Below the pieces are notes generated by a model, which worked only from the letters and a program-made list of their open reading frames with translations, was not told the origin of the DNA and did not search any database. Shown piece by piece: positions 38,362 through 46,952 of a DNA stretch of 64,000 nucleotides; position 1 is the first letter of the stretch, and every line of letters begins with the position of its first letter. The stretch covers positions 7,556,501 through 7,620,500 of the forward strand of contig NZ_CP036298.1 in assembly GCF_007752135.1 (NCBI RefSeq), given 5' to 3'. Source of the DNA: Aureliella helgolandensis. GTDB taxonomy: Bacteria; Planctomycetota; Planctomycetia; Pirellulales; Pirellulaceae. The position numbers and the translations under genes are program-made.

Positions 38362-39270
38362 GTGAATATTGGCATTCTTTTCCCTGGCCAGGGCGCACAA
38401 GCCGTCGGCATGGGGGCGGCACTTTGCGAGCGCAGCTCGATTGCCCGAGACCTCTTCACCGAAGCGAGCCAGATCCTCGATTTCGACCTGCTGGAGCTCT
38501 GTCAGACCGGCCCTGCCGAACAGCTCAACCGGACAGAATTCTGCCAACCTGCCCTGTTTGTACACAGCTTTGCAGCGCTCAAGCAGCTCGAAGCAGACCG
38601 TCCCGAACTCTGGGATTCCGTCGCTGCCGTAGCGGGTTTGAGCCTGGGCGAATACACGGCCGTGGCTGCCGCTGGCGGCGTAACCTTTGCCGATGCGGTA
38701 CGCTTAGTCCACATACGGGGCCGAGCCATGCAGGCCGCCGCCGACGCAGTATCCAGCAGCATGAGCAGTATTATCGGGCTCGACCAAGACAAAATCTCCG
38801 ACGCTTGCCAGGCGGCTAGCGACCCACAGCATTTCGCCCAGGTCGCCAACCTGCTGTGCCCTGGAAATATTGCAATTTCGGGACACACCGCTGCAATTGA
38901 ACGGGCCGAAGAGCTCTGCATGGCCGCTGGAGCGATGAAGGCGATCCGTCTGCAGGTGGCTGGCGCGTTCCACACCCCACTCATGCAGCCCGCCGTTGAA
39001 CAACTCACTGCCGCCCTGGCGAACGTTGAATTCAAACAGACGCGAGTCCCCGTTTATTCCAACGTAGATGCCGGCCCGCACACCACACCGGATGAATTCC
39101 GCAGCCTACTGGCACGCCAAGTAGTCAACCCCGTGCTGTGGGAAGCCTCGCTCAGAGCCATGCTAGCTGCAGGCATCGAGCAGTTTATCGAGATCGGTGC
39201 GGGGCGCATCCTGGCAGGTACGCTGAAGCGTATCAATCGAAAAACTCCCTGTGAGAACCTGGGCGAATAA
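38362..39270 (+). CDS. fabD: Malonyl-CoA-ACP transacylase
   Basis: A 302-residue enzyme that loads malonate from malonyl-CoA onto acyl carrier protein. Catalytic Ser94 lies in GLSLGEYTA (most FabD proteins have GHSLG; the His before the Ser is Leu here), and the second catalytic residue is His204 in FHTPLM. GILFPGQGAQ at the start is the family signature. It begins with GTG at 38362; no other start fits the N-terminus. It is the first gene of the fabD-fabG-acpP-fabF run. Confidence 0.97.
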   Translation: MNIGILFPGQGAQAVGMGAALCERSSIARDLFTEASQILDFDLLELCQTGPAEQLNRTEFCQPALFVHSFAALKQLEADRPELWDSVAAVAGLSLGEYTAVAAAGGVTFADAVRLVHIRGRAMQAAADAVSSSMSSIIGLDQDKISDACQAASDPQHFAQVANLLCPGNIAISGHTAAIERAEELCMAAGAMKAIRLQVAGAFHTPLMQPAVEQLTAALANVEFKQTRVPVYSNVDAGPHTTPDEFRSLLARQVVNPVLWEASLRAMLAAGIEQFIEIGAGRILAGTLKRINRKTPCENLGE

Positions 39271-39350
39271 CCTGCTCAGTCTCCATGGCGGCTCACAAAC
39301 CATGAGCCTCTTGAACTCAATTTTCTACGCAGATACTGAAACGGATTACT

Positions 39351-40121
39351 ATGAGCGACAGCAAGCAGCTGGGACTTTCAACCGACTTAAGCGGCCAAAT
39401 TGCAATGGTGACAGGAGCCTCCCAGGGGCTGGGAAAAGCCTGCGCCGAACGCCTGGCTGGCTGTGGCGCAACAGTCATCTGCGTCGCTCGCAATGCGGCC
39501 AAGCTGGGTGATACGGTCTCCGCCATTGAATCCGCCGGCGGGCAAGCGGTTGCCCTTCCCTGCGATGTTGGGTCGCGGGAGAGCGTCCAAGCTCTGTTTG
39601 CTGAAGTAGACTCCAAATACGGGAAATTAGACATCCTGGTCAACAATGCGGGGATTACCCGTGACACTCTACTGCCACGCATGACGGACGAGCAGTGGGA
39701 CGATGTGATTCAGACCAATCTGACGAGCTGCTTTCTGTTCTGCCGCGAGGCATCGAAGATGATGATGTCCGCCCGTTACGGACGCATTATCAACATGTCG
39801 AGCGTCTCCGGCTTGATCGGAAACCCCGGCCAAACCAACTATTCGGCTTCCAAGGCAGGCATGATCGGCCTGACTCGCAGCCTGGCGCGAGAACTCGGCA
39901 AACGCAAGATCACCATCAATGCGGTTGCGCCTGGCTTTATTGCCAGCGACATGACCGACGCGCTCGGCGACGACATGCTCAAGGAAGTCAAGAAGCGCAT
40001 TCCCGCTAACCGCCTGGGCCAAGCCGACGACGTGGCGGCAGCAGTAGTCTTCCTGGCGAGTGCTGGCGCCAGCTACATTACCGGCCAAGTCCTGACCGTC
40101 GACGGCGGAATGACCTGCTAA
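39351..40121 (+). CDS. fabG: 3-oxoacyl-ACP reductase
   Basis: A 256-residue short-chain dehydrogenase. The NADPH site TGASQGLGKA lies near the start, NNAG marks the Rossmann core and the catalytic set is Ser about 151, Tyr164 and Lys168 (YSASK). The C-terminal YITGQVLTVDGGM is typical of FabG. It reduces 3-oxoacyl-ACP in the first reductive step of fatty acid elongation. It lies 80 bp after fabD and 328 bp before acpP. Confidence 0.97.
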   Translation: MSDSKQLGLSTDLSGQIAMVTGASQGLGKACAERLAGCGATVICVARNAAKLGDTVSAIESAGGQAVALPCDVGSRESVQALFAEVDSKYGKLDILVNNAGITRDTLLPRMTDEQWDDVIQTNLTSCFLFCREASKMMMSARYGRIINMSSVSGLIGNPGQTNYSASKAGMIGLTRSLARELGKRKITINAVAPGFIASDMTDALGDDMLKEVKKRIPANRLGQADDVAAAVVFLASAGASYITGQVLTVDGGMTC

Positions 40122-40449
40122 TCCCCATTACGCCGATTTCCAATCCCCCGCCAGCCTACCGAGAGGCCGGTGGGAATTGAGTCGTTGATGGCGAAAGGTG
40201 GTCAATTTCCCCCACACGACCTATCTCACTTGACCGAGTTTGCTAAAATCTTCTATCTTTTGGGCCTTACCTGGGTCGCACTCCTGAGGACGGGCGATAA
40301 AATCCGGCACACTGGAGAGCGTTCCCGGTACGCCCACCCGCTGCACCCATGAGTGCAGCGCGTAAAATTCCGGAAACATCCATGAATCCCCAGCAGGCTG
40401 TTTTGCCACTGGGTAACTGATAACACAAAAAGTATTTGGAGCTTTGAAA
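40122..40449. other. Leader region before acpP
   Basis: 328 bp without a gene. A GC-rich imperfect hairpin lies at about 40147-40172 (GCCAGCCTACC...GGCCGGTGGG), soon after the fabG stop. The long leader suggests acpP has its own promoter, as expected for an abundant carrier protein; no box can be named. Confidence 0.4.
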
Positions 40450-40689
40450 ATGGCATCCGTTGAGGAACGAGTCGTCGATATCGTGGCCGAGCAATTGGGC
40501 GTTGAAAAGGACAAGATCAGTCGCGATACGCACTTCGTGAATGACCTGGGTGCCGACTCGCTCGACACAGTCGAGCTCGTCATGGAACTCGAAGAAGAGT
40601 TCGATATCAGCATCCCAGAAGATTCCGCTGAAAAGATCCAACGTGTCGGCGAAGCTGTCGACTACATCGAAAAGGCTCAACAGGGTTAG
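40450..40689 (+). CDS. acpP: Acyl carrier protein
   Basis: A 79-residue acidic carrier protein. The DSL motif (GADSLDTVE) contains Ser37, which receives 4'-phosphopantetheine. The ATG at 40450 (MASVEERV) is used; a TTG two codons upstream is in frame but adds nothing known. It is the central acyl shuttle for the FabD, FabG and FabF proteins encoded around it. Confidence 0.98.
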
Positions 40690-40844
40690 TCCCCCTGTCG
40701 AATCACCCAATCTTTGCAACACCCCAGCAGCTGATCGCAGTCAACTAGACTTGCGGTCGCTTAGCGATACCATCTAGAGTTGGCTGTCGCTAAGTATCGG
40801 CGACTGGGGTGTCATTATATTCAGAACCTGATTGAATCAAAGTT

Positions 40845-42083
40845 ATGAAGCGTCGCGTTGTTGTCACTGGACTGGGTGCCGTCACTCCCCTCGGCGATGA
40901 GGTGGACCAGCTTTGGAACGGCGTTTTAGAAGCTCAAAGCGGCATTAAGCAACTGAGCATTATCGACCCCAGTCCCTTTAAGGTGAAACTGGCGGGAGAT
41001 ATCCCCGATTTCGATCCTGGCAATTACTGCGACCCCAAAGACCTCAAGCGACTCGATCGCTTCACCCTCTTTGCACTTTATGCAGGGGGCAAAGCTATCG
41101 AGGACTCGGGCCTCGACTTCGACCAAGAAGATCGCTACCGCTGTGGAGTCATCCTCGGTTCCGGTATCGGCGGTTTGGCCGAAATCGAAGTTCAAGTCGA
41201 ACGCCTGCTCTACAAGGGCCCTGACCGCGTCAGCCCGCTGACGATTCCCAAGTTGATGCTCAATGCCGCTGGCGGTAACCTGTCGATCCGCTACGGACTC
41301 AAAGGCCCCAACTTTACAGTCGCCACCGCCTGCGCCAGCGCCACCAACGCTATGGGCGATGCCCTGAAGACCATCCAGTACGACGACGCTGACGTCGTTA
41401 TCACCGGCGGCACCGAAGCTGCGATCACTGCGATGGGGCTGAGCGCCTTCCAAAACATGAAAGCCCTCTCGGGACGCAACGACGAACCGCACCGCGCAAG
41501 TCGCCCGTTTGACACCCAGCGCGATGGCTTCGTGCTCAGCGAAGGTGCCGGTATCCTCGTGTTCGAAGAACTAGAACACGCCAAAGCACGCGGAGCCAAA
41601 ATCTACGGCGAAGTTCTCGGCTATGGCGCCAGTGGAGATGCCGGGCACATTACGCAGCCCGACCCGCAGGGAGCCGGAGCCTCCCGAGCCATGCAAAACG
41701 CTCTGCGCGATGCGAAGCTCGACCCGACAGCCATGGATTACATCAACGCGCACGGCACCAGCACACCACTCGGTGACAAAGCCGAGACGCAAGCCATGAA
41801 GGCCGTGTATGGCGATCATGCCTACAAGCTGGCCGTTTCAAGCACGAAGGGCAGCATGGGACATTCGCTGGGAGCCAGCGGTGGCATCGAAATGATTGTG
41901 ACCATGCTAGCCATTCAGAACGATGTCGTTCCCCCGACAGCCAACCTGGAGAATCCGGATCCAGCCTGCGATTTGGACTACACCCCTCTGAAACCCGCAT
42001 CCCGGACGATCCATACCGCCATGAATAACAGCTTCGGCTTCGGCGGCCACAACGCCAGTATCGTCTGCGGCAAAGTCCGCTAG
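40845..42083 (+). CDS. fabF: 3-oxoacyl-ACP synthase II
   Basis: A 412-residue condensing enzyme. The catalytic triad Cys163 (TACASATNA), His303 (NAHGTSTPLGD) and His340 (SMGHSLGASG) falls at exactly the E. coli FabF positions. The opening KRRVVVTGLGAVTPLG is typical. It condenses malonyl-ACP with acyl-ACP. It follows acpP by 155 bp and ends the cluster; a long repeat-filled interval follows. Confidence 0.98.
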   Translation: MKRRVVVTGLGAVTPLGDEVDQLWNGVLEAQSGIKQLSIIDPSPFKVKLAGDIPDFDPGNYCDPKDLKRLDRFTLFALYAGGKAIEDSGLDFDQEDRYRCGVILGSGIGGLAEIEVQVERLLYKGPDRVSPLTIPKLMLNAAGGNLSIRYGLKGPNFTVATACASATNAMGDALKTIQYDDADVVITGGTEAAITAMGLSAFQNMKALSGRNDEPHRASRPFDTQRDGFVLSEGAGILVFEELEHAKARGAKIYGEVLGYGASGDAGHITQPDPQGAGASRAMQNALRDAKLDPTAMDYINAHGTSTPLGDKAETQAMKAVYGDHAYKLAVSSTKGSMGHSLGASGGIEMIVTMLAIQNDVVPPTANLENPDPACDLDYTPLKPASRTIHTAMNNSFGFGGHNASIVCGKVR

Positions 42084-43042: not shown

Positions 43043-43633
43043 CTATTGAGGCAACTCTGCCAGCGACTTTCGCAGTCGCCTGAGCACGCGTGATTTCGCT
43101 TGATAGACACTGGCAACGCTCACCCCCAAGCCTTCGGCAACTTCGGCCGCCGACTTGCCGTCAATCGCACTCTGCCAGAACGCCTTCCAAGTCTGCGGTT
43201 CAAACTCAGCCTGCACCTGCCGCAACACCGACTGCACCACCGGAGACTCTGCGGCGGCCGGATCAATAGTGCTGCCCAAATCCTCGGGGCACTGCTCCAG
43301 TTTGAGCATGGCGGTGGTGCCGCCGACTGCGACCAGTCCCTTGGCTTGTCGGCGGAAGTAATCGCGCACTTTATTGCGTGTAATCGTCGCCAACCAAGAC
43401 CTGAAACTTCCCTCCTTTTTCTCGCGTTGAAATCCGCTGACACCTCGCGCCACCGCCGCAAAAACCTCCTGCACGACGTCCGATGCTTCGCCCTCAGGCA
43501 CTCCAGACGTGCGGCACCAGCGATACACAATTGGACCATACGTACTGACCAGTCGCCCCCAAGCTACGGCATCCATACGCTGGACTTCGTCTAGCAAATG
43601 GGAGGATAGCGTCGGATGATCTGGATGCGTCAT
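43043..43633 (-). CDS. RNA polymerase ECF-type sigma factor
   Basis: A 196-residue ECF sigma factor. Region 2 has 'YRWCRTSGVPEGEASDVVQEVFAAV' and then 'SFRSWLATITRNKVRDYFRR' (core binding and -10 recognition). Region 4 has 'KSAAEVAEGLGVSVASVYQAKSRVLRRL' (-35 recognition helix). The ATG at 43633 is at the expected place. It is divergent from the zinc-finger Ser/Thr kinase at 44226 across a 592-bp interval. In planctomycetes such ECF genes are often neighbours of Ser/Thr kinases, so control by the kinase is likely. Confidence 0.95.
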   Translation of the reverse strand: MTHPDHPTLSSHLLDEVQRMDAVAWGRLVSTYGPIVYRWCRTSGVPEGEASDVVQEVFAAVARGVSGFQREKKEGSFRSWLATITRNKVRDYFRRQAKGLVAVGGTTAMLKLEQCPEDLGSTIDPAAAESPVVQSVLRQVQAEFEPQTWKAFWQSAIDGKSAAEVAEGLGVSVASVYQAKSRVLRRLRKSLAELPQ

Positions 43634-43895: not shown

Positions 43896-44225
43896 CAATT
43901 AGGAGTGCTACATTGATGTTAAAACTCAAAACGCTTTTATATCAACAGGCCGGTAAGCAAGGCGCGAGTATCGCCTCTTCTCCATTGTACACACCGCTCA
44001 CAACCACCGCGCACGGCTTATGAGAGAGACGCTGGCCTTCGAATCCAGCCAGTTTCAAGAAAAGCGCTGTACCTCAGAAAATGCTGTCAGATGCTTCCGT
44101 TCATCTAAGTAGCGAGCGGAAAACACGTGCCGGTCGCTGAAACCACTTGCAGAAGATCTAACGCATGGCGTGCGTTGAGCTCTTCGTGCGGCGAGTACAA
44201 TAACACCAGCTACCAGGAGACTACC

Positions 44226-46952
44226 ATGATGACTGCCACCGTCTGCCCCAATGCTGCCGAGCTGCAGGCTCTGAGCACGGGACAACTCGAAGAGAAACAA
44301 AGCCAGGCGTTGTTCGACCACATCCAGGCCTGCGACCATTGCCGAACAGAGCTGGAAACGCTCGAGGATTCCGCCGATTCGCTGATCGCCAGCTTGCGTG
44401 GACAGAATGATTTTCAAGAGCTGGAGCAGGACCCCGGGTGCCAATTGGCCGTTGCCAAAGCGCTCGGTGCCCTGGTTCAGGCTGCGCAGAGCCCTACCGC
44501 TACGGAATTTCCCGACTTCCCTCGGCAATTGGGGGAGTATGAAATCGTGCGTCCATTAGGGCGTGGAGGTATGGGCTGCGTTTACCTAGCCCAGCACACG
44601 AAACTCGGCAGGCTCGTGGCGCTGAAAGTCCTGCAATCCCATCGCTTGGCCGATGTGCGTATGCGCGAGCGATTCGAAAACGAGATGCGAGCTGTCGGAC
44701 GACTCAGTCATCCGAATGTGGTCACTGCTCACGATGCCCGCGAAGTGGATGGAATGGCGGTCCTCGTTACCGAATACATTGACGGCTTCGACTTGGGGCA
44801 GCTTTCCGGACTGGTCGGCCCCCTACCCATTGCGGACGCCTGTGAAATTGTGCGGCGTGTGGCCGTTGCCCTGGAGTACACGCACCAACAGGGCTTTGTG
44901 CATCGCGATATCAAGCCATCGAACATCATGCTCAGCCGCCAAGGTGAGGTCAAACTCCTCGATTTGGGGCTGGCCCGCCTGCAGTTCGGCGACGGCCAAC
45001 GCGCCGAAATGACCGGGACCGGCCAAACCATGGGGACTGCCGACTACATTGCACCAGAGCAGGTTACCGACAGTCGGCACGTCGATATCCGCGCCGACAT
45101 TTATGCCCTGGGCTGTACGCTGTTCAAGCTGCTCACCGGTTCCGCGCCGTTTGCGGACGAGCACCACCCAACCGCCTTTGCGAAGATGACTGCGCACGTA
45201 TCCACGCTCCCGCCAAGTTTGAAAAACTCGCTCGACGGAGCACCTCACTCCTTGGCCAAACTGGTCGATACCATGCTCGGCAAGTCCCCCGCGTCCCGCC
45301 CTCAAAAGCCCCTACTCGTTGCCAATGTCCTGAAACCACTCGCGCTAGGGCATGATCTTCCCAAGCTGATTCAGCAAGCTGAAGAGCAACCGCAGACCAC
45401 TCGAGCCACTGTTAGCTCGCCAAGTCGCAGCGCAGTGGAGACACAACCTCTATTATTCAGACGAATTCCCGTGTGGTGCGCCGTTGCCGCTGGCTTCAGC
45501 TCGTTTGTTCTGGGAGTGTGCCTCGGAGTTCTAATTACGATTCGCTATCCCGACGGTACGGAATCGACTTTCGAAGTCCCCTCTGGCAGCCAAGTCACAC
45601 AGACTTACGTACCCGACGGGACAACCGCGGCGCGGGCTAGCTCAGGTTCACCCGAAAGCCCTCAACCGCCAGCCGCTACCCCTCCCCCTCTCACCACACA
45701 TGAAGCCTTGGATGTTGATGTGCAGGAAACAATGGACGTTGACATCGTCGAGCCCATCACCCACTTTGCACCTCGAATTGTGTTTCCGGCTGGCTACCCA
45801 GAACCGCTCCGCTTTGCCATCTTAGTTACCGAGCTCGATGACGAGAATTTGGAACGAGCTCAGGCCAAGCTGGCAAACAGCGAGGATATGATTGTTCCGA
45901 CGCAGTGGGGAGTTTGGTATCCAGTCCTAGATGACATTTCAGTCTCGATCTCGAGTTCGAAAAACGGAGTGGCCTACGCACTAACCTCGGCTACACCTGC
46001 CGACCATATCGCCTGGGGAAATATTGCGGGGCATATTTCAGTAATGACAAAGGAATCGCGTGATAAGGCGCGTGGTACCCAACTTGATCTGCAATTCACC
46101 CCTCCCCTGTCGAAAGAATTCGAACGCGTCACCGGTAATAATCTATCCAAGAATTTAGCGATCATTATCAATGGCGTGATTGCCTCGAGCCCAAGAATTC
46201 GAGGCAAGCTCTCAACGCATGCTTCCCTCACCGGAAAATTCCCACCTGAGGAAATACGCTACTTCATGCAATCGCTGGACGGCGGATTGGTAGAACCACT
46301 CCAACGGCCAACGATGGCTAGCGGCAAGGACGAAAGCAGTTCTCTCGCTAGATACGATCTCAAAGCGATCGGGATCGCCTTCCACAATTTCCATGACGTC
46401 TACCAAAAGCTACCAGGCTCACTCAATTTCAAGGAAGGCACCTTGGGATGGCGTCCAGGTACAGTACGGCCACCGGTTAGCTGGCGAGTTGTCCTCTTGC
46501 CGTTCATTGAGCAGAATGAGTTGTTTGAGCAATACCGATTTGACGAGCCATGGGATAGCGAAAGCAATCTGAAGCTTCTCGACAAAATGCCCGAAGTCTA
46601 CCGCAGTCCTCGCGCTCCCAAGGACCAAGCCGCCGGTGAAACGAACTACCAAGGCTTCGTTGGTGAACATACGGCGCTGGGCAATGCGGATGGCGAACCA
46701 TTTCGAGAATTCCTGGACGGAACGTCTAACACCATACTGCTGGTCGAAACGGCTTCCTCCGTCCCCTGGACCAAGCCGCAAGACATCCCCTTCTCGGAAG
46801 TTAAAGATATCGAGTCGGGCAAGTGGTTTGCCGGCCCAATCAACGTCTTGCTTGCAGATGGAGCCTGCCTGACACTCGAGCAACCGCTCAACCTATCCGA
46901 CTTCGCCAAACGCATCACTCGAGACGGCGGCGAATTCATCGCAGGGAAGTGA
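44226..46952 (+). CDS. Ser/Thr kinase: zinc finger + kinase + TM + SecD P1-like + DUF1559-like
   Basis: A 908-residue protein. Residues 33-40 hold H-x3-C-x2-C (His33, Cys37, Cys40), the anti-sigma zinc-finger pattern. The kinase domain (about 105-385) has the P-loop GRGGMG (112-117), Lys134, HRD at 226-228, DLG at 246-248 (replacing DFG) and an APEQ activation segment. One membrane helix is at about 414-440. Residues about 529-691 resemble the P1 head of SecD ('VTGNNLSKNLAIIINGVIAS', 'LTGKFPPEEIR'). Residues 710-908 resemble the DUF1559 pseudopilin-like domain ('LKAIGIAFHNFHDVY', 'DGTSNTILLVE'). The ATG at 44226 follows AGGAG. It is divergent from an ECF sigma gene and probably senses extracellular conditions and signals to it. 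Confidence 0.92.
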   Translation: MMTATVCPNAAELQALSTGQLEEKQSQALFDHIQACDHCRTELETLEDSADSLIASLRGQNDFQELEQDPGCQLAVAKALGALVQAAQSPTATEFPDFPRQLGEYEIVRPLGRGGMGCVYLAQHTKLGRLVALKVLQSHRLADVRMRERFENEMRAVGRLSHPNVVTAHDAREVDGMAVLVTEYIDGFDLGQLSGLVGPLPIADACEIVRRVAVALEYTHQQGFVHRDIKPSNIMLSRQGEVKLLDLGLARLQFGDGQRAEMTGTGQTMGTADYIAPEQVTDSRHVDIRADIYALGCTLFKLLTGSAPFADEHHPTAFAKMTAHVSTLPPSLKNSLDGAPHSLAKLVDTMLGKSPASRPQKPLLVANVLKPLALGHDLPKLIQQAEEQPQTTRATVSSPSRSAVETQPLLFRRIPVWCAVAAGFSSFVLGVCLGVLITIRYPDGTESTFEVPSGSQVTQTYVPDGTTAARASSGSPESPQPPAATPPPLTTHEALDVDVQETMDVDIVEPITHFAPRIVFPAGYPEPLRFAILVTELDDENLERAQAKLANSEDMIVPTQWGVWYPVLDDISVSISSSKNGVAYALTSATPADHIAWGNIAGHISVMTKESRDKARGTQLDLQFTPPLSKEFERVTGNNLSKNLAIIINGVIASSPRIRGKLSTHASLTGKFPPEEIRYFMQSLDGGLVEPLQRPTMASGKDESSSLARYDLKAIGIAFHNFHDVYQKLPGSLNFKEGTLGWRPGTVRPPVSWRVVLLPFIEQNELFEQYRFDEPWDSESNLKLLDKMPEVYRSPRAPKDQAAGETNYQGFVGEHTALGNADGEPFREFLDGTSNTILLVETASSVPWTKPQDIPFSEVKDIESGKWFAGPINVLLADGACLTLEQPLNLSDFAKRITRDGGEFIAGK

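Follow-up and report, generated by a model that had tools for sequence, protein, structure and literature searches.

In EcfP/PknT of Vibrio parahaemolyticus (group ECF43), and likewise in the planctomycete-containing groups ECF59, ECF61, ECF62 and ECF217, the gene for an extracytoplasmic function (ECF) sigma factor adjoins the gene for a Ser/Thr kinase; few of the signals to which such pairs respond are, to our knowledge, known. For the pairs of the literature, control by phosphorylation has been proposed, and two reviews (PMC8999054, PMC8103513) cover the phosphorylation-controlled ECF groups, several of them with planctomycete examples, together with the rule concerning the DAED motif of the sigma factor. 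According to PMC2754498, the ECF sigma factor RB138 and the kinase RB140 of Rhodopirellula baltica rise together under stress. Here we describe an ECF sigma/kinase gene pair in a 64,000-nucleotide stretch of Aureliella helgolandensis DNA (NZ_CP036298.1, positions 7,556,501 to 7,620,500; hereafter the window), the kinase of which carries a P1 domain, related to the head of SecD, and a DUF1559 domain in its predicted outer half. ECF/kinase pairs are numerous in such genomes, with 14 in this one, and the input domain of this pair has a homologue with a known job, the binding of chains that leave the Sec channel, so that the question of its ligand could be put directly to the purified domain.

We consider that the two genes form an ECF sigma/Ser-Thr kinase pair in which the kinase is the sensor and carries a new input module, and we put the probability of this reading at roughly 60%. 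The pair, which lacks the hallmark of ECF43, is assigned to the ECF/kinase kind by the adjacency of the sigma and kinase genes. The sigma gene lies 592 bp upstream of the kinase gene and is divergent from it, and a homologue of this sigma gene stands in the same upstream and divergent place in all 23 homologous loci fetched from the other genomes that carry the kinase, as well as in the window (in one locus, L039, the sigma gene is cut by the end of the contig). This adjacent sigma gene, the likely output of the kinase, was absent from the initial annotation of the window. No third partner was found among the 14 most widely shared neighbour clusters listed, and those examined overlie the sigma or the kinase gene; the clusters were judged from example and window members, and some of the loci are short.

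The outer half of the kinase is predicted to consist of the P1 and DUF1559 domains, which are separated from the kinase domain by a single helix. The initial annotation had read from the gene an HxxxCxxC zinc finger near residue 33, a complete kinase domain, one membrane helix and a DUF1559-type domain, and all four were borne out: H32-x3-C36-x2-C39 is present, the kinase motifs checked are intact, the hydropathy scan places the helix near residue 414, and PF07596 matches residues 712–848 with an E-value of 7.5e-22 (79.1 bits against a Pfam cut-off of 23.3). The zinc site conforms to the C/H...H-x3-C-x2-C pattern of zinc-containing anti-sigma (ZAS) domains, and there is a weak match of the N-terminus to the ChrR anti-sigma model (E 1.6e-4; 21.6 bits against a model cut-off of 124.5). 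Usual DUF1559 proteins have a hydrophobic prepilin helix before the head; in the kinase the scan detects a single helix, that near residue 414, and none before the DUF1559 head. The coordinates of these features are collected in Table 1.

Table 1. Features of the sigma/kinase locus, with positions in the window.
Feature	Position	Strand	Basis
Transmembrane Ser/Thr kinase, 908 aa, whole gene	44226..46952	+	Stop-free open frame; MMTATxCP start common to several homologues
Anti-sigma (ZAS-like) zinc-site pattern C7...H32-x3-C36-x2-C39, residues 7–39	44244..44342	+	Pattern in 23/23 family proteins; weak ChrR match
Protein kinase domain, residues 105–360	44538..45305	+	PF00069 (Pkinase), E 1e-49; five motifs in 23/23
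Single predicted membrane helix, about residues 414–432	45465..45521	+	Hydropathy scan
SecD P1-like domain, residues 527–690	45804..46295	+	Pfam head at residues 612–685, equal to 46059–46280
DUF1559 head, about residues 705–905, without a preceding hydrophobic prepilin helix	46338..46940	+	PF07596 at residues 712–848; hydropathy scan
ECF sigma factor of 196 aa, kinase partner, encoded divergently	43043..43633	-	TIGR02937, E 3.9e-21; PF04542, E 5e-15
Conserved element GATGAACG-N6-TCTGACA-N3-TTT, read towards the sigma gene	44067..44105	-	Looser pattern in 20/23 loci and the window

On sequence comparison, the P1 domain of the kinase is a real homologue of the SecD P1 head, which the initial annotation had placed at residues 529–691, limits that hold good. 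PF22599 (SecDF_P1_head) matches with 33.5 bits, above its curated cut-off of 27; the secD model TIGR01129 matches residues 603–682 (E 1.9e-5, far below the NCBIfam cut-off for this whole-protein model), and the P1 segment alone retrieves from the PDB the P1 structure of Thermus thermophilus SecDF (3aqo; E 1.5e-5). These single-sequence scores are modest and the fold prediction of the segment was uninformative, both of which would suit a chance or low-level resemblance to SecD. We regard that explanation as extremely unlikely, as the Pfam model is matched by 22 of the 22 family domains tested (E <= 0.001), a profile of these 22 domains brings solved SecDF structures to the top of a PDB search (3aqo; E 2.6e-14), and comparison of the same profile with one of 16 SecD proteins from related genomes gave a probability of 99.5 and an E-value of 5.5e-23 over the head. 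The family alignment comprises 22 of the 25 copies, leaving out one broken gene (L083), one cut by a contig end (L090) and one near-copy (L095); the SecD set is 16 of 28 loci examined, the others either not fitting the text pattern used or not being SecD. The resemblance extends to the stretch before the head (residues 527–605), which, when aligned separately, scored 31.2 against the pre-head part of SecD, whereas the highest score among 60 column shuffles was 16.1. At the level of profiles the result favours the initial annotation, which had made its claim depend on a SecD P1 match of residues 529–691.

The A. helgolandensis genome has two PF22599 matches above the cut-off, namely its SecDF (C1:1267175; 92.7 bits) and this kinase. 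Two weaker matches (L003 and L004) were judged to be chance hits, being sub-threshold and lying in proteins unrelated by eye. A model of the SecD membrane part that follows P1, built from up to 16 SecD loci, gave no match in the kinase. The initial annotation had also called the receptor translocon-derived, which is an argument from parsimony; in a poorly resolved tree (80 P1 heads, 83 columns) the kinase P1 does not fall within SecD.

When 60 related genomes were searched for residues 529–700, the same type of protein appeared in four other genomes of the genus, and a profile of six such P1 domains was then used to search 199 genomes of the family at a threshold of 80 bits. It gave 25 matches at or above this threshold in 24 of the 199 genomes, with the next match at 57 bits, so that the fusion of a kinase with a SecD P1 domain, which the initial annotation had reported from a single protein, recurs among relatives. 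Scans of the order (296 genomes) and the phylum (392 genomes), which score 9–12 candidates per genome and from which a part of the matched loci was classified, gave matches above 100 bits only within the family among the matches listed, the best of those outside it having 76 bits. A contig search yielded three loci, none of which carries P1; the named relatives of the DUF1559 part are from Planctomycetaceae and Schlesneria. Domain comparison of 23 of the 24 homologues, which includes the contig-end-cut L090 and leaves out L083, showed that the zinc-site pattern C-x(20-34)-H-x3-C-x2-C and the five kinase motifs are kept in every one of the 23. Mean pairwise identity is 0.73 in the kinase domain, 0.48 in both the zinc-site region and DUF1559, 0.40 in the helix linker and 0.30 in P1. 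The arrangement of the outer part varies: an LQGVW-like text pattern marks a stretch inserted between P1 and DUF1559 in 14 of the 23 homologues, and at this place the homologue at L038:5358-8324 matches Secretin_N below the threshold (24.2 bits; cut-off 28.2). The name TIGR03067 was considered for the inserted stretch and is not claimed, an NCBIfam scan of one carrier of the pattern (L082) having given no TIGR03067 match. The homologue at L083:5414-8144 is spread over three frames, with the kinase, P1 and DUF1559 in one each, and is either a decayed gene or the product of a sequence error.

The genome of A. helgolandensis encodes 16 sigma factors of this type, 14 of which adjoin a kinase gene by coordinates. 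The 13 paralogous kinases have one helix each, and H-x3-C-x2-C was seen by eye near the N-terminus of 12. Among the eight paralogous kinases with a long outer part, this part contains AhpC-TSA in two, WD40 in two and Poly_export in one, while in three it has no domain above the cut-off. The outer part is thus the end that varies in an otherwise standard pair of sigma factor and kinase. The closest paralogous pair (L170, G000:C1:6006000-6013500) is also divergent, and the Poly_export match of its kinase lies exactly at the cut-off.

In related genomes, P1 heads turn up in further proteins that are not SecD. Two M56 (BlaR1-like) proteins (L154:2721-6170 and L155:2084-5731) end in DUF1559 and P1, in keeping with the receptor-like character that the initial annotation had given to this outer part, and the gene upstream of each is BlaI-like by eye; a further M56 protein with P1 is found at L097. 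ECF sigma genes near L154 and L155 were not counted, being 17-bit matches only and of another kind. Proteins with PEGA and P1 (L156:2908-5208, L157:5721-9023 and L164:4609-6855) are encoded divergently from an ECF sigma/kinase operon at three loci that look homologous to one another, and L109 contains the gene of L157 again, its protein combining PEGA, P1 and T2SSG. Another family genome encodes a separate and unlike kinase (L046:5202-9353), which has P1 towards its end, preceded by a TIGR03067 match below the cut-off; an ECF sigma gene lies directly before this kinase gene. A sigma gene and a kinase, with P1 on or beside the kinase, are thus present at four of 20 non-SecD P1 loci outside the main family that were viewed in wide context (L046, L156, L157 and L164), a fraction without a computed chance rate from loci hand-picked among the matches. 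P1 is also joined to a 3-keto-disaccharide hydrolase domain (L118:808-2028 by Pfam; L163:4703-6028 alike by eye) and to HEAT repeats (L127), and makes up most of small proteins with a secretion signal by eye (L042, L043, L044 and L165). Given its presence on M56 proteins and beside other ECF/kinase operons, P1 seems to be a portable domain with a sensory role.

The sigma and kinase genes are separated by a conserved element with the approximate consensus GATGAACG-N6-[TC]CTGACA-N3-TTT in the direction of the sigma gene. The looser pattern GAACG-N5-8-CTGACA is found between the genes in 20 of the 23 homologous loci and in the window (44105–44067), and 18 of the 24 intergenic regions contain TGAACG, against an average of 2.0 regions, and at most 6, in 500 shuffles. 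The element was picked by an exploratory search of many patterns, the best of which occurred in 7 of 15 regions (maximum 3 in 20 shuffles), and near-copies among the loci (L091–L096) inflate its count. Within the window, about 30 nt at 44067–44105 are conserved and form an imperfect inverted repeat by eye. The element is likely to be a control site of the pair. Further upstream of the pair, the window contains what appears by eye to be a fatty-acid synthesis cluster (38362–42083; fabD, fabG and fabF-like).

These features suggest a path from the envelope to transcription. The outer part, composed of P1 and DUF1559 and in some relatives of an insert between them, would read an envelope signal, which would cross the single helix and alter the half that lies in the cytoplasm. 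In that half, the sigma factor is probably bound by the N-terminal zinc-site domain in the fashion of an anti-sigma factor, and the kinase may phosphorylate the sigma factor or the docking domain, by which the sigma factor would be freed or activated; control of the pair is likely exerted at the intergenic element. The sigma factor as kinase target and the outer part as sensor are both proposed from sequence. The least certain step is that P1, like the SecD head, would bind a polypeptide that is exported or unfolded. The initial annotation had suggested that the P1-like part may sense secreted or translocating substrates; for secreted or unfolded chains this is plausible, since the SecD head binds its substrate, the translocating polypeptide (PMC7793623). 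This binding, the reported proximity of the SecD head to PpiD and its predicted contact with SurA make a periplasmic chaperone, or a polypeptide that is exported or unfolded, the natural candidate for the ligand. The kinase may in this way let the cell sense exported proteins.

Several observations weigh against the kinase as a sensor that phosphorylates its partner. The pair is patchy, as 24 of the 199 family genomes have it. Of the domains compared, P1 changes fastest, which fits varied ligands but would also fit a lost binding function; AlphaFold2, run on the isolated P1 segment without an alignment, reached a pLDDT of 32; and in the homologue of genome G008 (L039) P1 occurs twice and DUF1559 gives no match, with the same sigma gene adjoining. 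Two traits of the partner sigma factors count in favour of the reading. The first is that the DAED motif of region 2.2 reads [DE]x[PAS]D with the third place never E (24/24). The acid is nevertheless retained at the first and last places in all 24, and the third place holds a phosphorylatable Ser in two and Thr in none, so that the ECF43 hallmark of a non-acidic DAED motif with a phosphorylatable Thr was found in none of the 24 compared. With two acids kept and Ser in only 2 of 24, the ECF43 mechanism is not simply transferable, and by the DAED rule of the reviews the partner sigma factor is an intermediate case. Region 2.2 could be read by pattern in 9 of the 13 paralogous sigma factors, 7 of which have an acidic third place; those of L170 and L182 have no acid there. 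The second trait, [HI]P[TS]xS[ST] near the N-terminus, occurs in all 24 partner sigma factors, the same sequences on which it was defined, and a like pattern in none of the 13 other kinase-paired sigma factors within the first 60 residues of their open frames, a limit that may miss the true start in long frames; most of the paralogous sigma factors have a PETRxSL-like stretch by eye at that place. Finally, and again against the reading, TGAACG-N6-YCTGACA was matched once exactly and eight times with one mismatch, and no regulon with the element emerged from the genome (9 forward and reverse matches against 21 in a backward control). As the exact match is single and the one-mismatch matches do not exceed the control, the element marks the gene pair with no visible regulon.

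Some of this evidence could be accommodated by other explanations. P1 might be a structural or protein–protein scaffold, serving dimerisation or the docking of a chaperone or of the DUF1559 head, with DUF1559 as the real sensor. The rapid evolution of P1 would suit such a role, as would the DUF1559 domains without P1 on proteins of L035 (one of them M56-like by eye) and the placement of the SecD P1 head near PpiD by crosslinking (PMC7793623) and its predicted contact with SurA (PMC9987972). The two P1 copies of the L039 homologue, which dispenses with DUF1559 beside the same sigma gene, and the P1 domains without DUF1559 beside other ECF/kinase operons are harder to reconcile with a scaffold, and we hold this explanation to be possible but rather doubtful. 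We estimate it to be unlikely that the main role of the kinase is that of an anti-sigma factor in the membrane, with a zinc-site domain that holds the sigma factor until a signal frees it without sigma phosphorylation. This would agree with the unbroken zinc-site pattern and with the two acids of the DAED motif, but the five kinase motifs, kept in all 23 proteins, and the kinase as the most conserved domain speak against it.

That P1 guards the translocon, sensing the state of SecDF or its chaperone partners and not substrates, we judge quite improbable. It is the same domain as the SecD head, and VemP, as described in PMC7793623, shows that SecD/F function is monitored in some bacteria; however, no sec gene recurs beside the pair among the 14 most widely shared neighbour clusters listed, and there is no known regulon. 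We retain the kinase as the probable sensor of the pair. A broader form of this reading is put forward only tentatively, as we think it less probable than its negation: that in this phylum the SecD head has turned into a portable receptor, combined with DUF1559 and with sigma-coupled kinases and BlaR1-like peptidases, by which exported or unfolded polypeptide is read directly and answered by a dedicated sigma factor. If true, the core secretion machine would have lent one of its domains to a second role, as receptor in a sensor of secretion stress.

The literature search found no description of a kinase input module of P1 and DUF1559 within its scope, which subscription papers lie outside, and the main text of a survey of planctomycete kinases (PMC11032199) contains neither DUF1559 nor SecD. 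The kinase resembles those of that survey, planctomycete Ser/Thr kinases whose outer domains are WD40 or TPR, in its single helix and in belonging to a kind with varied outer domains. Its gene adjoins a sigma gene as in EcfP/PknT-type pairs, but the sigma factor here keeps two DAED acids and the kinase adds a zinc-site domain and the P1 and DUF1559 outer part. With SecD and SecDF it shares the homologous head subdomain and the resemblance before the head, whereas its P1 is joined to a kinase, has no SecD membrane part and is distinct from the genome's own SecDF. The DUF1559 head is like that of other DUF1559 (PF07596, SBP_bac_10) proteins in its Pfam match and, by eye, its DGxSNT region, and unlike them in being joined to a kinase with no prepilin helix before it. 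The BlaR1/BlaI-type M56 sensors of L154 and L155 are likewise membrane signal proteins with DUF1559 and P1 as outer domains, but in reversed order and with a peptidase and a BlaI-like gene (by eye) where this locus has a kinase and an ECF sigma factor.

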